This document shows, in pieces, positions 1,556 through 40,521 of a stretch of DNA of 46,180 nt (position 1 is its first letter; each line of letters begins with the position of its first letter). The stretch is from positions 1-46,180 of the IMG/VR virus record IMGVR_UViG_3300046450_002768. One strand, given 5' to 3'. The notes below the pieces were generated by a model. The model was not told where the DNA came from and made no database searches. It saw only the letters and a program-made list of their open reading frames with translations. Source of the stretch: a virus. The position numbers and the translations under genes were made by a program.

Positions 1556-1972
1556 TTAAAGTAGGATATCAAATTTATGCTTAAAAAAGTCATAAGTTAA
1601 AAGCGGTACTTCCTCTTCTTCAACTTCAATTAAAATAAAGTTATTATTTTTAAGCCATACAGATTTTTCGTAATCCCTTTTAATCCCATCAAGATATTTT
1701 GAGCGAGAATTATTATGAAAAAACTTATTAAAGGAAGAGTGTTGTTTCCCTTGCACTTCAATTGCTATTTTTTTGGTAGCATTAAGAAGGTCGACGCTCA
1801 TTCTGGAGCCAAAAACGGGAAACTCTTCATAAACTATGCAATTTTCCCAGTATGGCTTTAAGAATGATTTTGTTTGAAACTGAACTTTAGAGCGACTTTT
1901 TTTATTCCAATCTATTAGATATTTAGTTACGTTTTTAGACTGCTGCCTTCCGTATATGTTGTATAGTCTCAT
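1556..1972 (-). CDS. PD-(D/E)XK (VSR/DUF559-like) nuclease, putative
   Basis: A 138-residue protein with the pattern MSVDLL...KKIAIEVQGKQH around the middle, followed by RDYEKSVWLKNNNFILIEVEE. This is the D...ExQ and trailing charged helix/strand arrangement seen in VSR/DUF559-type PD-(D/E)XK nucleases, so a nicking, repair or free-standing homing-type endonuclease is plausible. The open frame extends upstream to 2029, but that extension reads the T-arm and acceptor of the tmRNA, so I place the start at the ATG at 1972, 16 bp past the tmRNA 3' end. The N-terminal 40 residues are basic. Function is inferred from the motif only. Confidence 0.6.
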   Translation of the reverse strand: MRLYNIYGRQQSKNVTKYLIDWNKKSRSKVQFQTKSFLKPYWENCIVYEEFPVFGSRMSVDLLNATKKIAIEVQGKQHSSFNKFFHNNSRSKYLDGIKRDYEKSVWLKNNNFILIEVEEEEVPLLTYDFFKHKFDILL

Positions 1973-1987
1973 TTTAATTACATAAAT

Positions 1988-2400
1988 TGGTGGAAGCGGC
2001 GGGAATCGAACCCGCGTCTTTAGAGCCATCGGCTCAGATATACTACAAGCTTAGTCAGTATTATTTAACTCGCTTGGCAGGTTACTGACAAACAGCTTAC
2101 ACGAGTTCGTGGTGCAATTTCTTTAACCTAGCTCGAACCACTCTAAACACTAGGTTTTTGCTCGCTATCGTCGCCCTAGCTCCTTAACGAGCATCTAGAG
2201 TAGGACGGGGCAGAACTTAAGCTGCCAGCGCGGCTTCTTGGAAACCGAAACGTGCGAGAATCTCGTCCGCTTCTGCTACCGAAGGAGCCATGTCAATATT
2301 ACTATTGGCATATATGTTTTAATGGAAGTTTAAAGAGGCCAACCATTATCCTCCGCTTGCAATCTAGCGTAAGAATCTAAATCGAATCCAGTACGCTCCC
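1988..2400 (-). ncRNA. ssrA: tmRNA (transfer-messenger RNA), one-piece
   Basis: The minus strand starts GGGAGCGTACTGGATTCGA, the typical tmRNA 5' end, and finishes GGGTTCGATTCCC (T-arm), CGCTTCC and ACCA. The 7-bp acceptor GGGAGCG/CGCTTCC pairs fully with one G-U, and CCA is encoded. At 413 nt it is of normal one-piece length. An internal frame ends ...ALAA then TAA, the usual proteolysis tag C-terminus. tmRNA with SmpB rescues stalled ribosomes and tags the nascent chain for ClpXP-type proteases; this phage also carries a ClpP. It sits between the recombinase and a nuclease gene. Confidence 0.95.
2217..2288 (-). other. tmRNA tag-peptide reading frame
   Basis: In-frame codons run from GCT (2288) to TAA (2219-2217) and end AALAA. 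The resume codon is not certain: GCT at 2288, GCA at 2276 or GCG at 2270 would give tags of 23, 19 or 17 residues. All are longer than the ten-residue E. coli tag, and the core ADEILARFGFQ is unlike the common ANDE... start. The LAA end is the ClpXP degron. Confidence 0.75.
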
Positions 2401-2407
2401 ATAACGT

Positions 2408-2436
2408 ATGTTACACATGATTTGAATAAAGAGCAA
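2408..2436 (-). promoter_or_regulatory. tmRNA promoter
   Basis: TTGCTC (2436-2431), 17-nt spacer, TAACAT (2413-2408), then 7 nt to the first G of the mature tmRNA at 2400. The predicted start coincides with the mature 5' end, so little or no 5' processing may be needed. Confidence 0.6.
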
Positions 2437-2441
2437 GCATA

Positions 2442-3539
2442 TTAAGATTTTTTCAATACATCTCTAAATTTATGAAATAAATATTTTCCAATCTCCTTAT
2501 TTTCCTCTAGGTATTTTCTTAAGTTATCAATACCTTGATGCTGTTTCTTGAATTCTAATGTGGTTTTTTGTTCTACCTCTTCAATAACTTCGTCGGATAT
2601 CGTCACCCATGCACCTTTAGCCGTAGCCATATCCCACATTAACATCATGTCAACGACCTCATATTCAACCCAGATACTTTTCCCACCTGTCCTGCCATAC
2701 TTAATTGGGTAGCGTACCTCAACCCCAGTTTTTTCGTTGGCGCTTTTTCTAAAAATAACCTTACACCAGTGCCCTAACTGTTCCCCTTTCCCATTAGGCT
2801 GTGTAGAGATTATATCTTTAGACCAGCGTGGTTGAAATTCTAAAATCCAATCACTATAGTGAAGAGCAGCATTACCCCCAGAAGCATTTGTAACTTTGGG
2901 GTCCCCTTTTTCGTATGGATTAATTTTAATCTGACTCCTTACTTGAGAAACCATATAGCAAATATGGCCCTTACTTGCAAATGACAGGGCCATTCTTTTT
3001 AAGAAGTCCGAGGTTAAGAGGGATCCGCCAGCCACTTTAACAGCTTCATCAGAACTCTTTTCTAAATCCCCACGAGGCACCAAGGCATCCATAGAGTCTA
3101 TAATGAACATATATCGTACATCGTGAGGATTATCGTGCACTAGTCCTCTGAAAAAATTTATTACTGATTCAAAAATATTACATTTATATACAAACCATTT
3201 TTCGTCGTTTTGATCAACTCCTGATCTTTCAATCATATCATCAGAAAGTCTACCTTCTGACTTAACATAAATCACCATAGAATTTTCCATCTTTTGAAAA
3301 TTCCTAGCGAAGGATAAGGCGCAAGATGTCTTACCCCCCTCAGTAACCCCTGAGGCTCTAATAACCCCCGGCTTTATACCACCCCCCATTTCAATATCTA
3401 GCTTTAGGCTACCGCTTGAAATGGTGTAATCCCGCTCTTCTTCAAAGTTGTAGTGATCCCCTTTATTTTGACTGAGATACGCTTGAATTTGCCCAAGAGG
3501 CCCCACCGTGCTGGTTTCTTCTTTTTTCTTTTTCTTCAT
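2442..3539 (-). CDS. uvsX: RecA/UvsX-family recombinase
   Basis: 365 residues. RecA-fold core with Walker A GVTEGGKT (residues 64-71), a catalytic-type segment YVKSEGR near 95 and Walker B MFIIDSMDAL near 145. A VSQVRSQIKINPY segment resembles the RecA/UvsX L1 region, followed by NASGGNAALHYSDWI, the L2-like part. The length is close to phage UvsX (about 350-390). The family forms filaments on ssDNA and drives strand exchange in recombination-dependent replication and repair. The start ATG at 3539 overlaps the stop of the upstream glycosyltransferase by 4 nt. The N-terminus is lysine-rich. The tmRNA gene follows immediately downstream. Confidence 0.85.
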   Translation of the reverse strand: MKKKKKEETSTVGPLGQIQAYLSQNKGDHYNFEEERDYTISSGSLKLDIEMGGGIKPGVIRASGVTEGGKTSCALSFARNFQKMENSMVIYVKSEGRLSDDMIERSGVDQNDEKWFVYKCNIFESVINFFRGLVHDNPHDVRYMFIIDSMDALVPRGDLEKSSDEAVKVAGGSLLTSDFLKRMALSFASKGHICYMVSQVRSQIKINPYEKGDPKVTNASGGNAALHYSDWILEFQPRWSKDIISTQPNGKGEQLGHWCKVIFRKSANEKTGVEVRYPIKYGRTGGKSIWVEYEVVDMMLMWDMATAKGAWVTISDEVIEEVEQKTTLEFKKQHQGIDNLRKYLEENKEIGKYLFHKFRDVLKKS

Positions 3540-6201: not shown

Positions 6202-7307
6202 TCAAAAAGCTTATTAAGATTTTTTTCAAAATCATTATACGGTACATCTTCGTAAGATAAAGATGGGGAGAATTGATCCCGGTGACCCTGTCTTTGTTCT
6301 TTATTCCCCTCCAATTCGCCGTGGGCCAAAAGGGCCGCGACAGAAGAAATTGGAAATGCGGTTGCCTTTTGCATTGCCGTAAAGTTGTTATCGCTAATGA
6401 TTACTCTTTCTTTTTTCCACGAAAGTCCCTTGCTATCTTTAGCAGAAGCCATAATTATTACGGCATCTTCTGTACTAGTCTCGTAGGCTGCACTCTTGTC
6501 AATTAAAGTTCGTAATGTTTTGTCATCAAGCTTACATTTATTCATTAAAAAGTCTATTAGCTTGTGGTGGCCCACCCATCGCAGGGTTTTGTACATACAG
6601 TTTTTTACGCCTCGTCTTTGCATTGATTTTATGGAATGGGCCGCGCCGCCACTTGTACAGAAAGACTCTAGACCTACGCACCCTTCCCACTCAGGTTCCT
6701 CTAGAGTATAATGAGAAAGACCCGGTGTGGTTACTATCTTACCGTTTACCAATATTTCACAATCGTCTCGATATTCATTAAGCAAGCCATCAATAGACCA
6801 CGTTGCCAGATATTTAAGTGGTCCAGAGGGGCGTTTTAATGGAATCCCACCAACCATCATTTCTACCGTATGTACTGGTGCGTGGATTTGGTGGTAGCCG
6901 TGCTCCGCTAAGATGTTAACCCACCCCGGCGCAAGACCTAGGTCGGTCATGACTGGCTTGGTGGCCACTTTTTTGGCGTATTCATTTATGTTATGTGAAA
7001 CATCTACCCTACCCCCAAGATCACAATAACGAATATTATTTTCAATACACCACATACCCACCCCTTGGGTTTGGTGATAGGGTAAGCTGCTTATTACCAC
7101 GTCGGGGGACTCCTCCTTGATAATCTTGTAAATGTCTTCGTTGCCCTCTACCTGAGAGGTCCTAGCTGTTGGCACTAGGGATTGGACATCTGTTAGTGCC
7201 TCTTTAGAAACATCTAATACTTGCGCGTCAAAGTTAAGTTTTGCCATCGACCACGTGATCGCCCGACCCATTCTTCCGCCGCCGCAAATAACAACCTTTT
7301 TTTTCAT
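6198..7307 (-). CDS. Saccharopine/lysine 6-dehydrogenase family oxidoreductase
   Basis: 369 residues. Rossmann motif ICGGGRMGRAITWSM at residues 7-21; TDLGLAPGWVNILAEHGY near 145; GGIPLKRPSGPLKYLATWS near 177; YKTLRWVGHHKLIDFL near 245. These are hallmarks of the saccharopine dehydrogenase C-terminal fold as found in L-lysine 6-dehydrogenases and bacterial saccharopine reductases. The lysine dehydrogenases oxidise lysine to 2-aminoadipate 6-semialdehyde with NAD(P). Its ATG touches the stop of a SET-domain gene and its own stop overlaps gmd. An aldehyde dehydrogenase that could use the semialdehyde lies in the same operon (9176-10729). Carboxynorspermidine-type activity is an alternative. The family is clear, the substrate inferred. 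Confidence 0.75.
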   Translation of the reverse strand: MKKKVVICGGGRMGRAITWSMAKLNFDAQVLDVSKEALTDVQSLVPTARTSQVEGNEDIYKIIKEESPDVVISSLPYHQTQGVGMWCIENNIRYCDLGGRVDVSHNINEYAKKVATKPVMTDLGLAPGWVNILAEHGYHQIHAPVHTVEMMVGGIPLKRPSGPLKYLATWSIDGLLNEYRDDCEILVNGKIVTTPGLSHYTLEEPEWEGCVGLESFCTSGGAAHSIKSMQRRGVKNCMYKTLRWVGHHKLIDFLMNKCKLDDKTLRTLIDKSAAYETSTEDAVIIMASAKDSKGLSWKKERVIISDNNFTAMQKATAFPISSVAALLAHGELEGNKEQRQGHRDQFSPSLSYEDVPYNDFEKNLNKLFE

Positions 7308-7807
7308 TATTCCCTTTCAAAAACTTCAGGGTCAGGTATCGGGGCAATGCCTCGCCCTATCCAGTAACCTTTTCCGTAATTCCATGTTAATTCTGACGCC
7401 TTTTTAATATCAAAGGCCGCATAAAATGTAATCCACCCTTTGTTTGTTCCTTTAATCGATCCGTATTTCCAGTAACAGTTAGGGTGGTCAGCATGGTTGT
7501 ACATCATTGCATACCCTAGTGGTAATAAACACCAACCTTCTTTTTCATGTGGAAAAATATAATCAATTAAAACGCCTTGAATACCTACGGCGTGTTCTAA
7601 TGAAATTGTGGGGCAAATTTCGACGGCATCCCCTTTTTTAAAGTCTTCTCCCGCAAAAACCCCTCGAAGTCCAATTTTGGACTCTTTTATCTCTAACTTT
7701 CCTGTATTGTTATCTATAGAAGGCCCTTCGTGGCAAAAGGTGTCCTTTAGGGAACGGGCTGCCAAAAATGTAGCCATTTTATTGAAATAGTCGTTATCTT
7801 CACTCAT
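7307..7807 (-). CDS. SET-domain protein, putative protein-lysine methyltransferase
   Basis: 166 residues. GLRGVFAGEDFKKGDAVEICP (residues 47-67) is the start of a SET domain, NHADHPNC near 105 is the NHxxxPN motif that binds the methyl donor S-adenosylmethionine, and ASELTWNYGKGYW near 140 holds the ELTxDY-like end of the active site. SET proteins transfer methyl groups to protein lysines. Pre- and post-SET cysteine clusters are absent, as usual in small bacterial or viral forms. Start and stop overlap the HAD and lysine-dehydrogenase-like genes. A second, shorter SET-like gene is at 45752-46063. Targets (virion, ribosome, host protein) are unknown. Confidence 0.75.
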   Translation of the reverse strand: MSEDNDYFNKMATFLAARSLKDTFCHEGPSIDNNTGKLEIKESKIGLRGVFAGEDFKKGDAVEICPTISLEHAVGIQGVLIDYIFPHEKEGWCLLPLGYAMMYNHADHPNCYWKYGSIKGTNKGWITFYAAFDIKKASELTWNYGKGYWIGRGIAPIPDPEVFERE

Positions 7808-24426: not shown

Positions 24427-24720
24427 TTACTTGCTATTGAGGTCATCTATTTTTTCTTCAAGTTTGTCGAATCTATGGTGTACGGTTTTGACTAGATTGT
24501 GGAAGTCGTCCTTCGTGGTATATTTTTCAGGGAGGGTTAGCGCAAGGGTACTTAGGTCTTTGCGTAACAGTTTCATGTCATCTTCATGGTGCATCCATAA
24601 CGCTTCTCTTTCCCTGTCTATTTCATCAAGGCGACCCCAGAACGTTTTAAGGAGAAACCCTCCAAAGAAAGTAATTATACCCGCAACGGTATTAAAGAAA
24701 AATTGAAAGTCAACTTCCAT
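24427..24720 (-). CDS. Small membrane/coiled-coil protein, holin-like
   Basis: 97 residues. One hydrophobic segment, FFFNTVAGIITFFGGFLL (about 7-24), is followed by an acidic/basic helical region and a coiled coil ending VHHRFDKLEEKIDDLNSK. LPEKYTTKDDFHNLVK is the pattern common in small phage proteins annotated near lysis genes. The topology fits a single-pass membrane protein with a cytoplasmic or periplasmic coiled coil, so holin, antiholin or spanin-like roles are possible. No endolysin is adjacent. It is divergent from the plus-strand gene at 24788, separated by 67 bp of AT-rich DNA. Confidence 0.6.
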   Translation of the reverse strand: MEVDFQFFFNTVAGIITFFGGFLLKTFWGRLDEIDREREALWMHHEDDMKLLRKDLSTLALTLPEKYTTKDDFHNLVKTVHHRFDKLEEKIDDLNSK

Positions 24721-24776
24721 AATAGTATTTACACTTGTATTTTAGCTAGTCTTATATATTTTTTAAAAAAATAGTG

Positions 24777-24782
24777 TAATAT
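24777..24782 (+). promoter_or_regulatory. Putative -10 element for the plus-strand island
   Basis: TAATAT lies 5 nt before the ATG at 24788, in 67 bp of AT-rich DNA between divergent genes. No good -35 is present at 16-18 nt. The spacing predicts a leaderless or nearly leaderless transcript. Confidence 0.35.
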
Positions 24783-24787
24783 TTACT

Positions 24788-25036
24788 ATGATGAAGCGGG
24801 GCACATTGACTAAATATCGTAATGGAACGTGGTATATTGGTAAAAAGGAAGAAAACAAGCATAAAGTAACCACTTCTCGAGAAGCGAACCTTCTTGTTGT
24901 AGAAAAAACATGCACAACAAAAACAAAGACCATGGAAGAGTATGATTCTTCACTCTTTTATTTAGCAGCCACACTCGTTGTTCTGGCAGTTATTAATGCC
25001 GCTTTAGTTGGGGTTGTAGTGTTATCTGTTTTTTAG
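24788..25036 (+). CDS. Small single-pass membrane protein
   Basis: 82 residues, not recognised. The first 45 residues are polar and basic (TKYRNGTWYIGKKEENKHK); the rest is one hydrophobic helix, FYLAATLVVLAVINAAL continuing to the end, so the N-terminus is probably cytoplasmic. The start is ATGATG, with a TAATAT -10 five nucleotides upstream. It begins a three-gene island on the strand opposite to its surroundings, typical of small phage early or accessory genes. Confidence 0.55.
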   Translation: MMKRGTLTKYRNGTWYIGKKEENKHKVTTSREANLLVVEKTCTTKTKTMEEYDSSLFYLAATLVVLAVINAALVGVVVLSVF

Positions 25037-33562: not shown

Positions 33563-33656
33563 ATAGAAAACAATAAATCAAAATAAAATAAAATCAAATA
33601 TTAATTATAATTTAATAAAGTTAACAGGGAACCTTATGACCATTTTCCTTTAGGAT

Positions 33657-33690
33657 AAAAAAGAGATAACCCCCCACACGGAGGGGTTAT
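33657..33690 (-). terminator. Rho-independent terminator, minus strand
   Basis: Stem ATAACCCC/GGGGTTAT (33690-33683 with 33673-33666), 8 bp with a 9-nt loop, followed on the minus strand by CTC and six T (33662-33657). Confidence 0.65.
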
Positions 33691-33857
33691 GACCCTTTTC
33701 CTCTGAGGCCCAAAAATTTTAAAGTGAATGGGAGACACGAGATACGATCACGTCGAACTGCCTGCCTAAAACCATCTCCCTATGCCGGGCATTTTAGGTG
33801 AAGAAAATGTGCTAAAAACTTCTTACAGCAGTAACCCACAACACACGGGGGTAATGC

Positions 33858-33882
33858 CAAGGTGTCTAACCTTGATTTTTTT
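33858..33882 (+). terminator. Possible rho-independent terminator, plus strand
   Basis: CAAGGT (33858-33863), 5-nt loop, ACCTTG (33869-33874), then A and seven T (33876-33882). The 6-bp stem is short. No plus-strand gene lies upstream, so it may end antisense transcription or belong to a plus-strand small RNA. Confidence 0.45.
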
Positions 33883-34031
33883 GAAAGAACCTAACGGAAC
33901 TTTAACGGTATCTGCCTTAGGTGTGGGGGACCGTCGTGGATTTTTACATCCGCCCTGACCCTGAAGGTCTCACTAAGGCCAAACTCTACTGTTTTCTCTC
34001 AGCGAGCTTAAAGGGGTTGAACCTTTCGATG

Positions 34032-34060
34032 AAAGTATCCGCTCCTTGATTTTAAGTCAA
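34032..34060 (-). promoter_or_regulatory. Putative promoter with 15-bp dyad
   Basis: TTGACT (34060-34055), 17-nt spacer, TACTTT (34037-34032); GATACT two bases closer is an alternative -10. TTGACTTAAAATCAA at 34060-34046 is identical to the copy at 1551-1537. The -35 overlaps the end of the 34057-34470 gene. Confidence 0.5.
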
Positions 34061-38783: not shown

Positions 38784-38819
38784 TGAAAAAAATATTATTA
38801 TAAAGGTGTAACATCTTAT

Positions 38820-39368
38820 ATGCAAGAGGGCTTTACAGAGATTGACTTTACAGAGCAAATCTTAGCTAACGAGGGGTTAGCCAAGACGTTTACCACCAAA
38901 CGTCGTAACGACCTGCCAGATGGTGATTTTGCATACATAGCTCCCGGTGGTAAAAAGGTGGACGGCAAAACAGAACCCCGTTCCCTTCGCCACTTCCCCA
39001 TCCCCGATGCCGCTCACGTAAGAAACGCATTAGCGCGACTTCCACAATCTAAGCTGTCGCCAGAGGTAAAGGCCAAAATACTGAAAAAACTCAAATCAAA
39101 AGCTAAAGAATACGGAATTGAGGTTTCGGATACTTGGAAAGACAGCGGGGTTACAAAAGCTTATCACGAGGATATGGAGGAACATTTCAAAGGCATGAGA
39201 GAGAATCTGCGCGATAGAATGGACAACCAAGATTCCTATGATACAAAACACGAGACTTTACGTGAGTTACGAAAACACCATCAAGGTGCTATAAAAAATA
39301 TTGATCAAGAAATAAAAAGTTTAACGAAGGACAAATCCGAGGACACAGGCGACTTGGGTAACGAATAA
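38820..39368 (+). CDS. DUF6582-like phage head-region protein
   Basis: 182 residues. RRNDLPDGDFAYIAPGGKKVDGKTEPRSLRHFPIPDAAHVRNALARLPQSKLS (about 28-80) is the characteristic DUF6582 segment, found in phage proteins near prohead protease and scaffold genes. The C-terminal 80 residues are charged and helical, likely coiled coil. Its N-terminal EIDFTEQI is repeated at the end of the next protein. ATG at 38820 has AAAGG about 15 nt upstream. Confidence 0.68.
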   Translation: MQEGFTEIDFTEQILANEGLAKTFTTKRRNDLPDGDFAYIAPGGKKVDGKTEPRSLRHFPIPDAAHVRNALARLPQSKLSPEVKAKILKKLKSKAKEYGIEVSDTWKDSGVTKAYHEDMEEHFKGMRENLRDRMDNQDSYDTKHETLRELRKHHQGAIKNIDQEIKSLTKDKSEDTGDLGNE

Positions 39369-40318: not shown

Positions 40319-40338
40319 TTTTATGTGTAATTTTATAT

Positions 40339-40521
40339 GTGAGGGTTATTACAGCAAAAATTTGCGGGTATAAGGTAAAAATTTATAAAAGAAAAATAAA
40401 AATTTTTGACCCCTCTAGCGAATTAGAGGACGACAAGGCAATTGCCATTGTCCAATACTTGTATGACGAAGGGTTTCTAGAGGAAGAAGCCCATATAGAT
40501 TGCGAAATCATCAATGAATAA
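40339..40521 (+). CDS. Small protein, paralogue of 39573-39773
   Basis: 60 residues from a GTG start at 40339. VITAKICGYKVKIYKRKIKIFDPSSELEDDKAIAIVQYLYDEGFLEEE aligns with the minus-strand 66-residue protein in its central 30 residues (xFDPxxxL...YLYxEGF). The pair brackets the signal peptidase gene in opposite orientations. Function unknown. Confidence 0.58.
   Translation: MRVITAKICGYKVKIYKRKIKIFDPSSELEDDKAIAIVQYLYDEGFLEEEAHIDCEIINE

Follow-up and report, generated by a model that had tools for sequence, protein, structure and literature searches.

The virus from which the analyzed DNA stems likely possesses a functional one-piece tmRNA that would be transcribed from a promoter of its own (GTGTAAnAT), take part in host-aided ribosome rescue and append a degradation tag of 30 residues, for which a second role is probable. 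The DNA, an IMG/VR virus record with a length of 46,180 bases and a GC content of approximately 40%, is referred to as the window and belongs to an uncultured, mostly marine phage lineage. Its genes include those for a RecA/UvsX-like recombinase, a ribonucleotide reductase, a head-maturation-like protease with a ClpP fold and a sigma factor; a terminase was detected in five of ten long relatives. A long conserved helical tag on divergent viral tmRNAs, hairpins formed by the tag codons and a promoter of the leaderless class appear to be new; none of them was found to be described in the open-access literature searched. Conserved across viral tmRNA bodies of which only about half of the bases agree, and not detected in the tmRNAs of the bacterial and archaeal genomes scanned, the tag provides a handle on the purpose of phage tmRNAs, and the receptor of the peptide could be fished out directly. 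A promoter common to the tmRNA and to apparently leaderless mRNAs suggests how a structured RNA whose 5′ end is already nearly mature could be produced during infection, and GTGTAAnAT defines a regulatory motif of this uncultured lineage.

The tmRNA gene is located at positions 1988..2400 on the minus strand, with G1, the mature 5′ end, at 2400 and the CCA terminus at 1990-1988. The covariance-model search suggested by an earlier note on this DNA was run and matched the Rfam family RF00023 over the full model (1-374) with 141 bits, compared to a gathering score of 47, and an E value of 2.4e-55. Together with the ARAGORN prediction, this bore out the statement of that note that a complete one-piece tmRNA is present. 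The acceptor stem (GGGAGCG/CGCUUCC) harbors a G3-U70 pair, which is an established alanine identity element, as well as A73 and the encoded CCA, and the U70 position was maintained in the relatives compared. The full-length Rfam match, G3-U70 and CCA are shared with the bacterial one-piece tmRNA (ssrA, RF00023; E. coli), as are the resume codon GCC (Ala), a stop codon in H5 and a tag ending in LAA. What separates the RNA of the window from bacterial ssrA is its location on a phage, a tag of 30 aa compared to the most frequent length of 10 aa in the tmRNA database (PMC11915505), a promoter element immediately in front of the mature 5′ end, and the lack of a detectable smpB gene in the virus records. 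Because SmpB was found in none of the 23 viral records, which are possibly fragments, while the control was positive in 10 named genomes, the tmRNA presumably uses the SmpB protein of the host.

One-piece tmRNAs of phages are already known. Phage G and the mycobacteriophages Bxz1 and Wildcat, like the window phage, possess a complete tmRNA in their genomes (PMC4131195). The tag of phage G (AKLNITNNELQVA) comprises 13 aa compared to 30 aa in the window, and a search with a mycobacteriophage tag gave no match. The marine phages Melnitz and Mosig also contain a tmRNA, for which, as for that of the window, a role during infection has been proposed (PMC9004378). However, theirs is a permuted two-piece molecule of the alphaproteobacterial type linked to a riboswitch, whereas the window tmRNA consists of one piece, and a riboswitch was not detected in the window. 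A DNA search of annotated phage records did not yield a match.

The tag is encoded by 30 codons at 2220..2309 on the minus strand (ANSNIDMAPSVAEADEILARFGFQEAALAA), followed by TAA at 2217-2219. Both ARAGORN and Rfam placed the resume codon GCC at 2309, and the frame agrees with the alignment of the relatives and with purifying selection. The end of the tag is hydrophobic and of the LAA type, and the earlier note had read it correctly as ALAA. The 17 to 23 residues assigned to the peptide, by contrast, match a start inside the frame, and the ANDE-type start declared missing gave way to an ordinary AN start, since the tag begins with ANSN at GCC. ARAGORN tags of several relatives were likewise shortened at an internal codon, which was corrected by full-length alignment. 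While the AN start and the LAA end are ordinary, the length of 30 residues is unusual, being three times the usual one. For 43 distinct tags of tmRNAs found by a 5′-end pattern, the median length was 21 aa, according to ARAGORN calls of which a few are shortened. The tags of relatives terminate with VAA, LVA, MAV or AVAV, in two cases (L016, L035) with VE. In E. coli, LVA and AAV ends are functional, AAV being slower (PMC9382460). By analogy, most ends of the relatives should be compatible with a ClpXP-type recognition, which is doubtful for the VE ends. In searches with the tag, annotated phage records gave only a chance match to a DNA primase (E 2), and Pfam, PHROGs and PDB no significant family. 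AlphaFold2 predicted an extended start and two helices, a longer one (residues 11-21) and a short one (26-29), which are separated by a turn at Gly22 (mean pLDDT 80).

To collect relatives, a protein search with recA was performed, which resulted in 56 viral loci, and more were obtained by means of a tag pattern and a tmRNA 5′-end pattern. A profile search and frame reading led to a family of 52 distinct viral tmRNAs, whose tags have a length of 29-35 aa and represent 49 distinct peptides. The tag frame is conserved in all 52 sequences, whose consensus is ANxNVDMAPS(L/V)AEADAILAKFG... with Asp6, Ala8, Ser10, Glu13, Ala14, Asp15, Leu18, Ala19 and Gly22 being invariant. A dN/dS of 0.18 was determined over all 52 tag sequences. 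Since a search with the tag pattern inevitably favors loci with the motif, the selection test was repeated on 23 distinct sequences (the window and those of the recA search) that had been found without this pattern; all of them have the motif and the 16-codon core gave a dN/dS of 0.22. As judged from these comparisons, the tag peptide is under purifying selection (dN/dS approximately 0.2). The strongly diverged tmRNAs of L081, L066, L070 and L198, with Rfam scores of 79-150 bits, are only 48-51% identical to that of the window in their bodies but 66-79% identical in the tag; L198 had been found by the 5′-end pattern and not by the tag pattern.

The tag codons also form two putative RNA hairpins. 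Hairpin A (2270..2284, minus strand) pairs CUUC (Pro-Ser) with GAAG (Glu-Ala), while hairpin B (2255..2265, minus strand) reads CGAG-AUU-CUCG with Glu and GCGA-UUC-UCGC with Ala. Because the hairpins constrain the codons, Glu at core codon 8 is encoded by GAG in 25 of 25 cases, though GAG makes up 33% of the phage's Glu codons, and Ala at this position by GCG in 24 of 26 cases, though GCG accounts for 14% of the Ala codons. Each hairpin is fully formed in 51 of the 52 sequences, compared to means of 14 (A) and 12 (B) expected when synonymous codons are drawn according to the codon usage of the genome, and of 39 (A) and 17 (B) when they are drawn from the pool of the tag codons. Double compensations were identified as well (CCC with GAG in L081, GCA with CTT in L138 and L120). 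In L198, the peptide APSVAEA contains a Ser encoded by AGT and hairpin A as drawn cannot form. From the 51 sequences with hairpins and the peptide of L198 retained without hairpin A, it can therefore be concluded at the sequence level that constraint acts on the peptide and, for most members, on the RNA as well.

Alignment of the upstream regions revealed a sole conserved block, GTGTAAnAT, behind which an AT-rich stretch extends up to G1. In the window, the element (GTGTAACAT, 2408..2416, minus strand) begins 16 nt before G1. Of 50 distinct upstream regions, 33 contain a GTGTA that starts 13-17 nt before G1, and 17 are devoid of it at this position; the background-based binomial probability of this count is vanishingly small, a figure that overstates the case because the sequences are related. 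Similar elements exist 14 nt in front of four other start codons of the window, namely GTGTAATAT (24774..24782, plus strand; ATG at 24788), GTGTAAATA (24726..24734, minus strand; ATG at 24720), a second copy of GTGTAACAT (38806..38814, plus strand; ATG at 38820) and GTGTAATTT (40325..40333, plus strand; GTG at 40339). The 14-nt spacing leaves no space for a ribosome-binding site in these four genes. In the 56 loci and the window, GTGTAA precedes the open ATG of 44 ORFs by exactly 14 nt, compared to 0-5 ORFs at every other distance; the 44 ORFs with a GTGTAATTA-like motif correspond to 39 distinct sites (window and L002-L057). Among the control motifs, only GTTTA showed comparable peaks at single distances (39 at 16 nt, 27 at 33 nt). 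Because of the exact position before 44 ORFs, GTGTAAnAT looks like a -10-type promoter for leaderless mRNAs, which is the simplest reading; a conserved -35 region was not found upstream of the tmRNAs.

By analogy with the leaderless genes, transcription of the tmRNA would start somewhere between approximately 3 nt before and 1 nt after G1. A leader of 1-3 nt is possible, since the spacing between motif and G1 amounts to 13-17 nt, whereas it is constant at 14 nt for the leaderless genes. The earlier note had proposed a TTGCTC-N17-TAACAT promoter initiating at the first G. This string is literally present upstream of the tmRNA, but TTGCTC is only shared with the 97% identical L002, and a consensus sigma-70 promoter scan did not report the pair. 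What remains is a dedicated promoter whose start would coincide with the mature 5′ end or be at most approximately 3 nt away from it, by which the window tmRNA may avoid RNase P. Read as TTGCTCTTTA, the TTGCTC region matches boxA, with the consensus TGCTCTTTA, equally well. The T4 late promoter TATAAATA occurs only inside genes. It may be that a phage sigma factor reads GTGTAAnAT, since one to four sigma-like domains per record were detected in 15 of 17 long relatives.

The genes adjacent to the tmRNA lie on the same strand in the order recA - tmRNA - nuclease. The recombinase gene (2442..3539, minus strand) is separated from the tmRNA by 41 nt, and the ATG of a Vsr/I-Bth0305I-like nuclease of 138 aa (1556..1972, minus strand) follows 15 nt after the CCA. 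In 16 loci in which the tmRNA directly follows recA, the distance between them is 11-90 nt, compared to 11-812 nt when all 27 loci having recA upstream are considered. In 17 loci, the ATG of the nuclease gene is located 5-15 nt behind the CCA. At loci devoid of the tmRNA, the nuclease gene still follows recA within approximately 1.4 kb in 28 of 31 cases, often with an ATGA overlap. With a promoter of its own, the tmRNA thus represents a cassette that was inserted between the coupled recA and nuclease genes, and three relatives without a tmRNA at the recA slot have one elsewhere. tRNA genes in the corresponding region downstream of recA were seen at 7094 in L013, at 7105 in L016 (tRNA-Arg) and at 7526 in L012 (tRNA-Val); those of L013 and L016 occupy the very slot of the tmRNA, and upstream of all three genes the GTGTAA element is absent.

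The AF2 model of the nuclease has a pLDDT of 94, and its nearest folds are I-Bth0305I and Vsr (Foldseek E 0.03-0.13). The protein may be a nuclease acting in recombination, or else a homing endonuclease that has become fixed. Residues VD, EVxGxQH and RDxxK are conserved in it, and nearly all relatives have the gene behind recA. That it is a mobile homing endonuclease which moves together with the tmRNA was rejected as the main reading. The 28 of 31 tmRNA-less loci in which the nuclease gene follows recA make it therefore a conserved neighbor of the latter.

Several other explanations have to be weighed against a functional tmRNA with its own promoter and a selected tag. The short distance to recA on the same strand, the missing motif in 17 upstream regions and the lack of a conserved -35 would fit a tmRNA that is produced mainly by read-through of the recA operon and, in the manner of most bacterial tmRNAs, processed at the 5′ end by the host RNase P, GTGTAAnAT not being its promoter. 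Yet the motif is the sole block conserved upstream despite differing neighbor genes, and at its fixed distance from the start codons of other genes it cannot be a signal for tmRNA processing, which makes read-through unlikely. It is also conceivable that the tag is merely that of an uncultured host whose tmRNA was acquired by the phages, without anything phage-specific about it; a resemblance to bacterial tmRNAs is frequent among those of phages (PMC9004378). When 84,980 species genomes of bacteria and archaea were scanned with a permissive tag pattern, a single match resulted, in Trinickia, without a tmRNA in the locus; as ATA and TTR codons lie outside the pattern, this absence is strong but not absolute. 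Moreover, the viral tmRNA bodies bearing the tag share only about half of their bases with one another, and an origin from the host is judged to be quite unlikely.

As to the purpose of the tag, the hairpins, which far exceed the synonymous-codon expectation and show compensatory changes, would be in line with a sequence kept only for the RNA structure of its codons, the peptide being irrelevant beyond the LAA end. This is very unlikely, since the invariant Ser10 uses all four TCN codons, the invariant Gly22 varies in the third base, dN/dS is low and L198 retains the peptide with an AGT codon that breaks hairpin A. Even more improbable, close to negligible, is that a phage ClpP steers or degrades the tagged proteins, a partnership the earlier note had raised. 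A protein of the ClpP fold, whose Ser-His-Asp triad seems intact, is indeed encoded 6 kb from the tmRNA. However, its best PHROG matches are head-maturation proteases, only 7 of 28 related viral records contain such a ClpP-like protein, and a ClpX-type AAA+ partner (AAA_2) scored above the cut-off in none of 23 viral records, possibly fragments. More room, though tentatively, might be given to a dual-purpose tag: a helical targeting peptide that would direct products to a fate chosen by the phage (adaptor, protease, sequestration) instead of mere degradation by the host, with codons building the two hairpins and the tmRNA being launched leaderless.

According to the preferred reading of a functional tmRNA, transcription would take place during infection from the compact -10-type promoter, so that little or no 5′ trimming would be needed. 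The 3′ end would have to be cut from a longer transcript, because there is no terminator between the tmRNA and the nuclease gene. Host AlaRS would charge the molecule, which host SmpB and EF-Tu would bring to ribosomes that have stalled on mRNAs which are broken or lack a stop codon, where translation would restart at GCC and append the tag. Its hydrophobic -ALAA end would direct the product to ClpXP-type proteases of the host, while the remaining part, DMAPS(L/V)xEADxILAxFG, a predicted helix-turn-helix, probably has a second role, e.g., as contact to an adaptor or unfoldase, because the peptide is conserved across very divergent phage tmRNAs. The upstream regions without GTGTA and the tag ends of L016 and L035, poor classical degrons, speak against this reading.

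A second group of viral one-piece tmRNAs with long tags (AEDNTSDLLAEAEYIFNNADEFLAGVEDYALAA) was found in L151 and its relatives L133, L156, L148, L159, L162, L193, L201, L183, L118 and L187. Their tags, of approximately 32-35 aa (AEDNTSDLLAEAEYIFNNADEFL...ALAA), resemble that of the window in belonging to the 33-aa class and in the LAEA(D/E)xI core. In a gapped alignment, the identity to the window tag is 48%, and the upstream element before G1, GATCTTTGAAATTT, is a different one. The two tags may be distantly related, their homology being uncertain.

Other viral tmRNA families (L112, L116, L125, L142, L147, L169, L139, L165 and others) often carry a GTTCTTTnAAA-like sequence upstream, and TTCTTT lies 8-25 nt before G1 in 27 of 44 distinct upstream regions of unrelated viral tmRNAs. 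This sequence is similar to boxA, an element for antitermination in the leaders of rRNA, and TATAAT exists farther upstream in some of these loci. Hence, unrelated viral tmRNAs may carry a boxA-bearing leader; nothing specific on boxA in conjunction with tmRNA was found in the literature searched. In the window, 494 bp at 33563-34056 are without a called ORF and contain several possible GC-rich hairpins, with no match in Rfam. Half of the fragment (3536-24342, minus strand) is occupied by sugar-nucleotide, glycosyltransferase and epimerase-like genes, together with a gene for a SET-domain protein (7307-7807).
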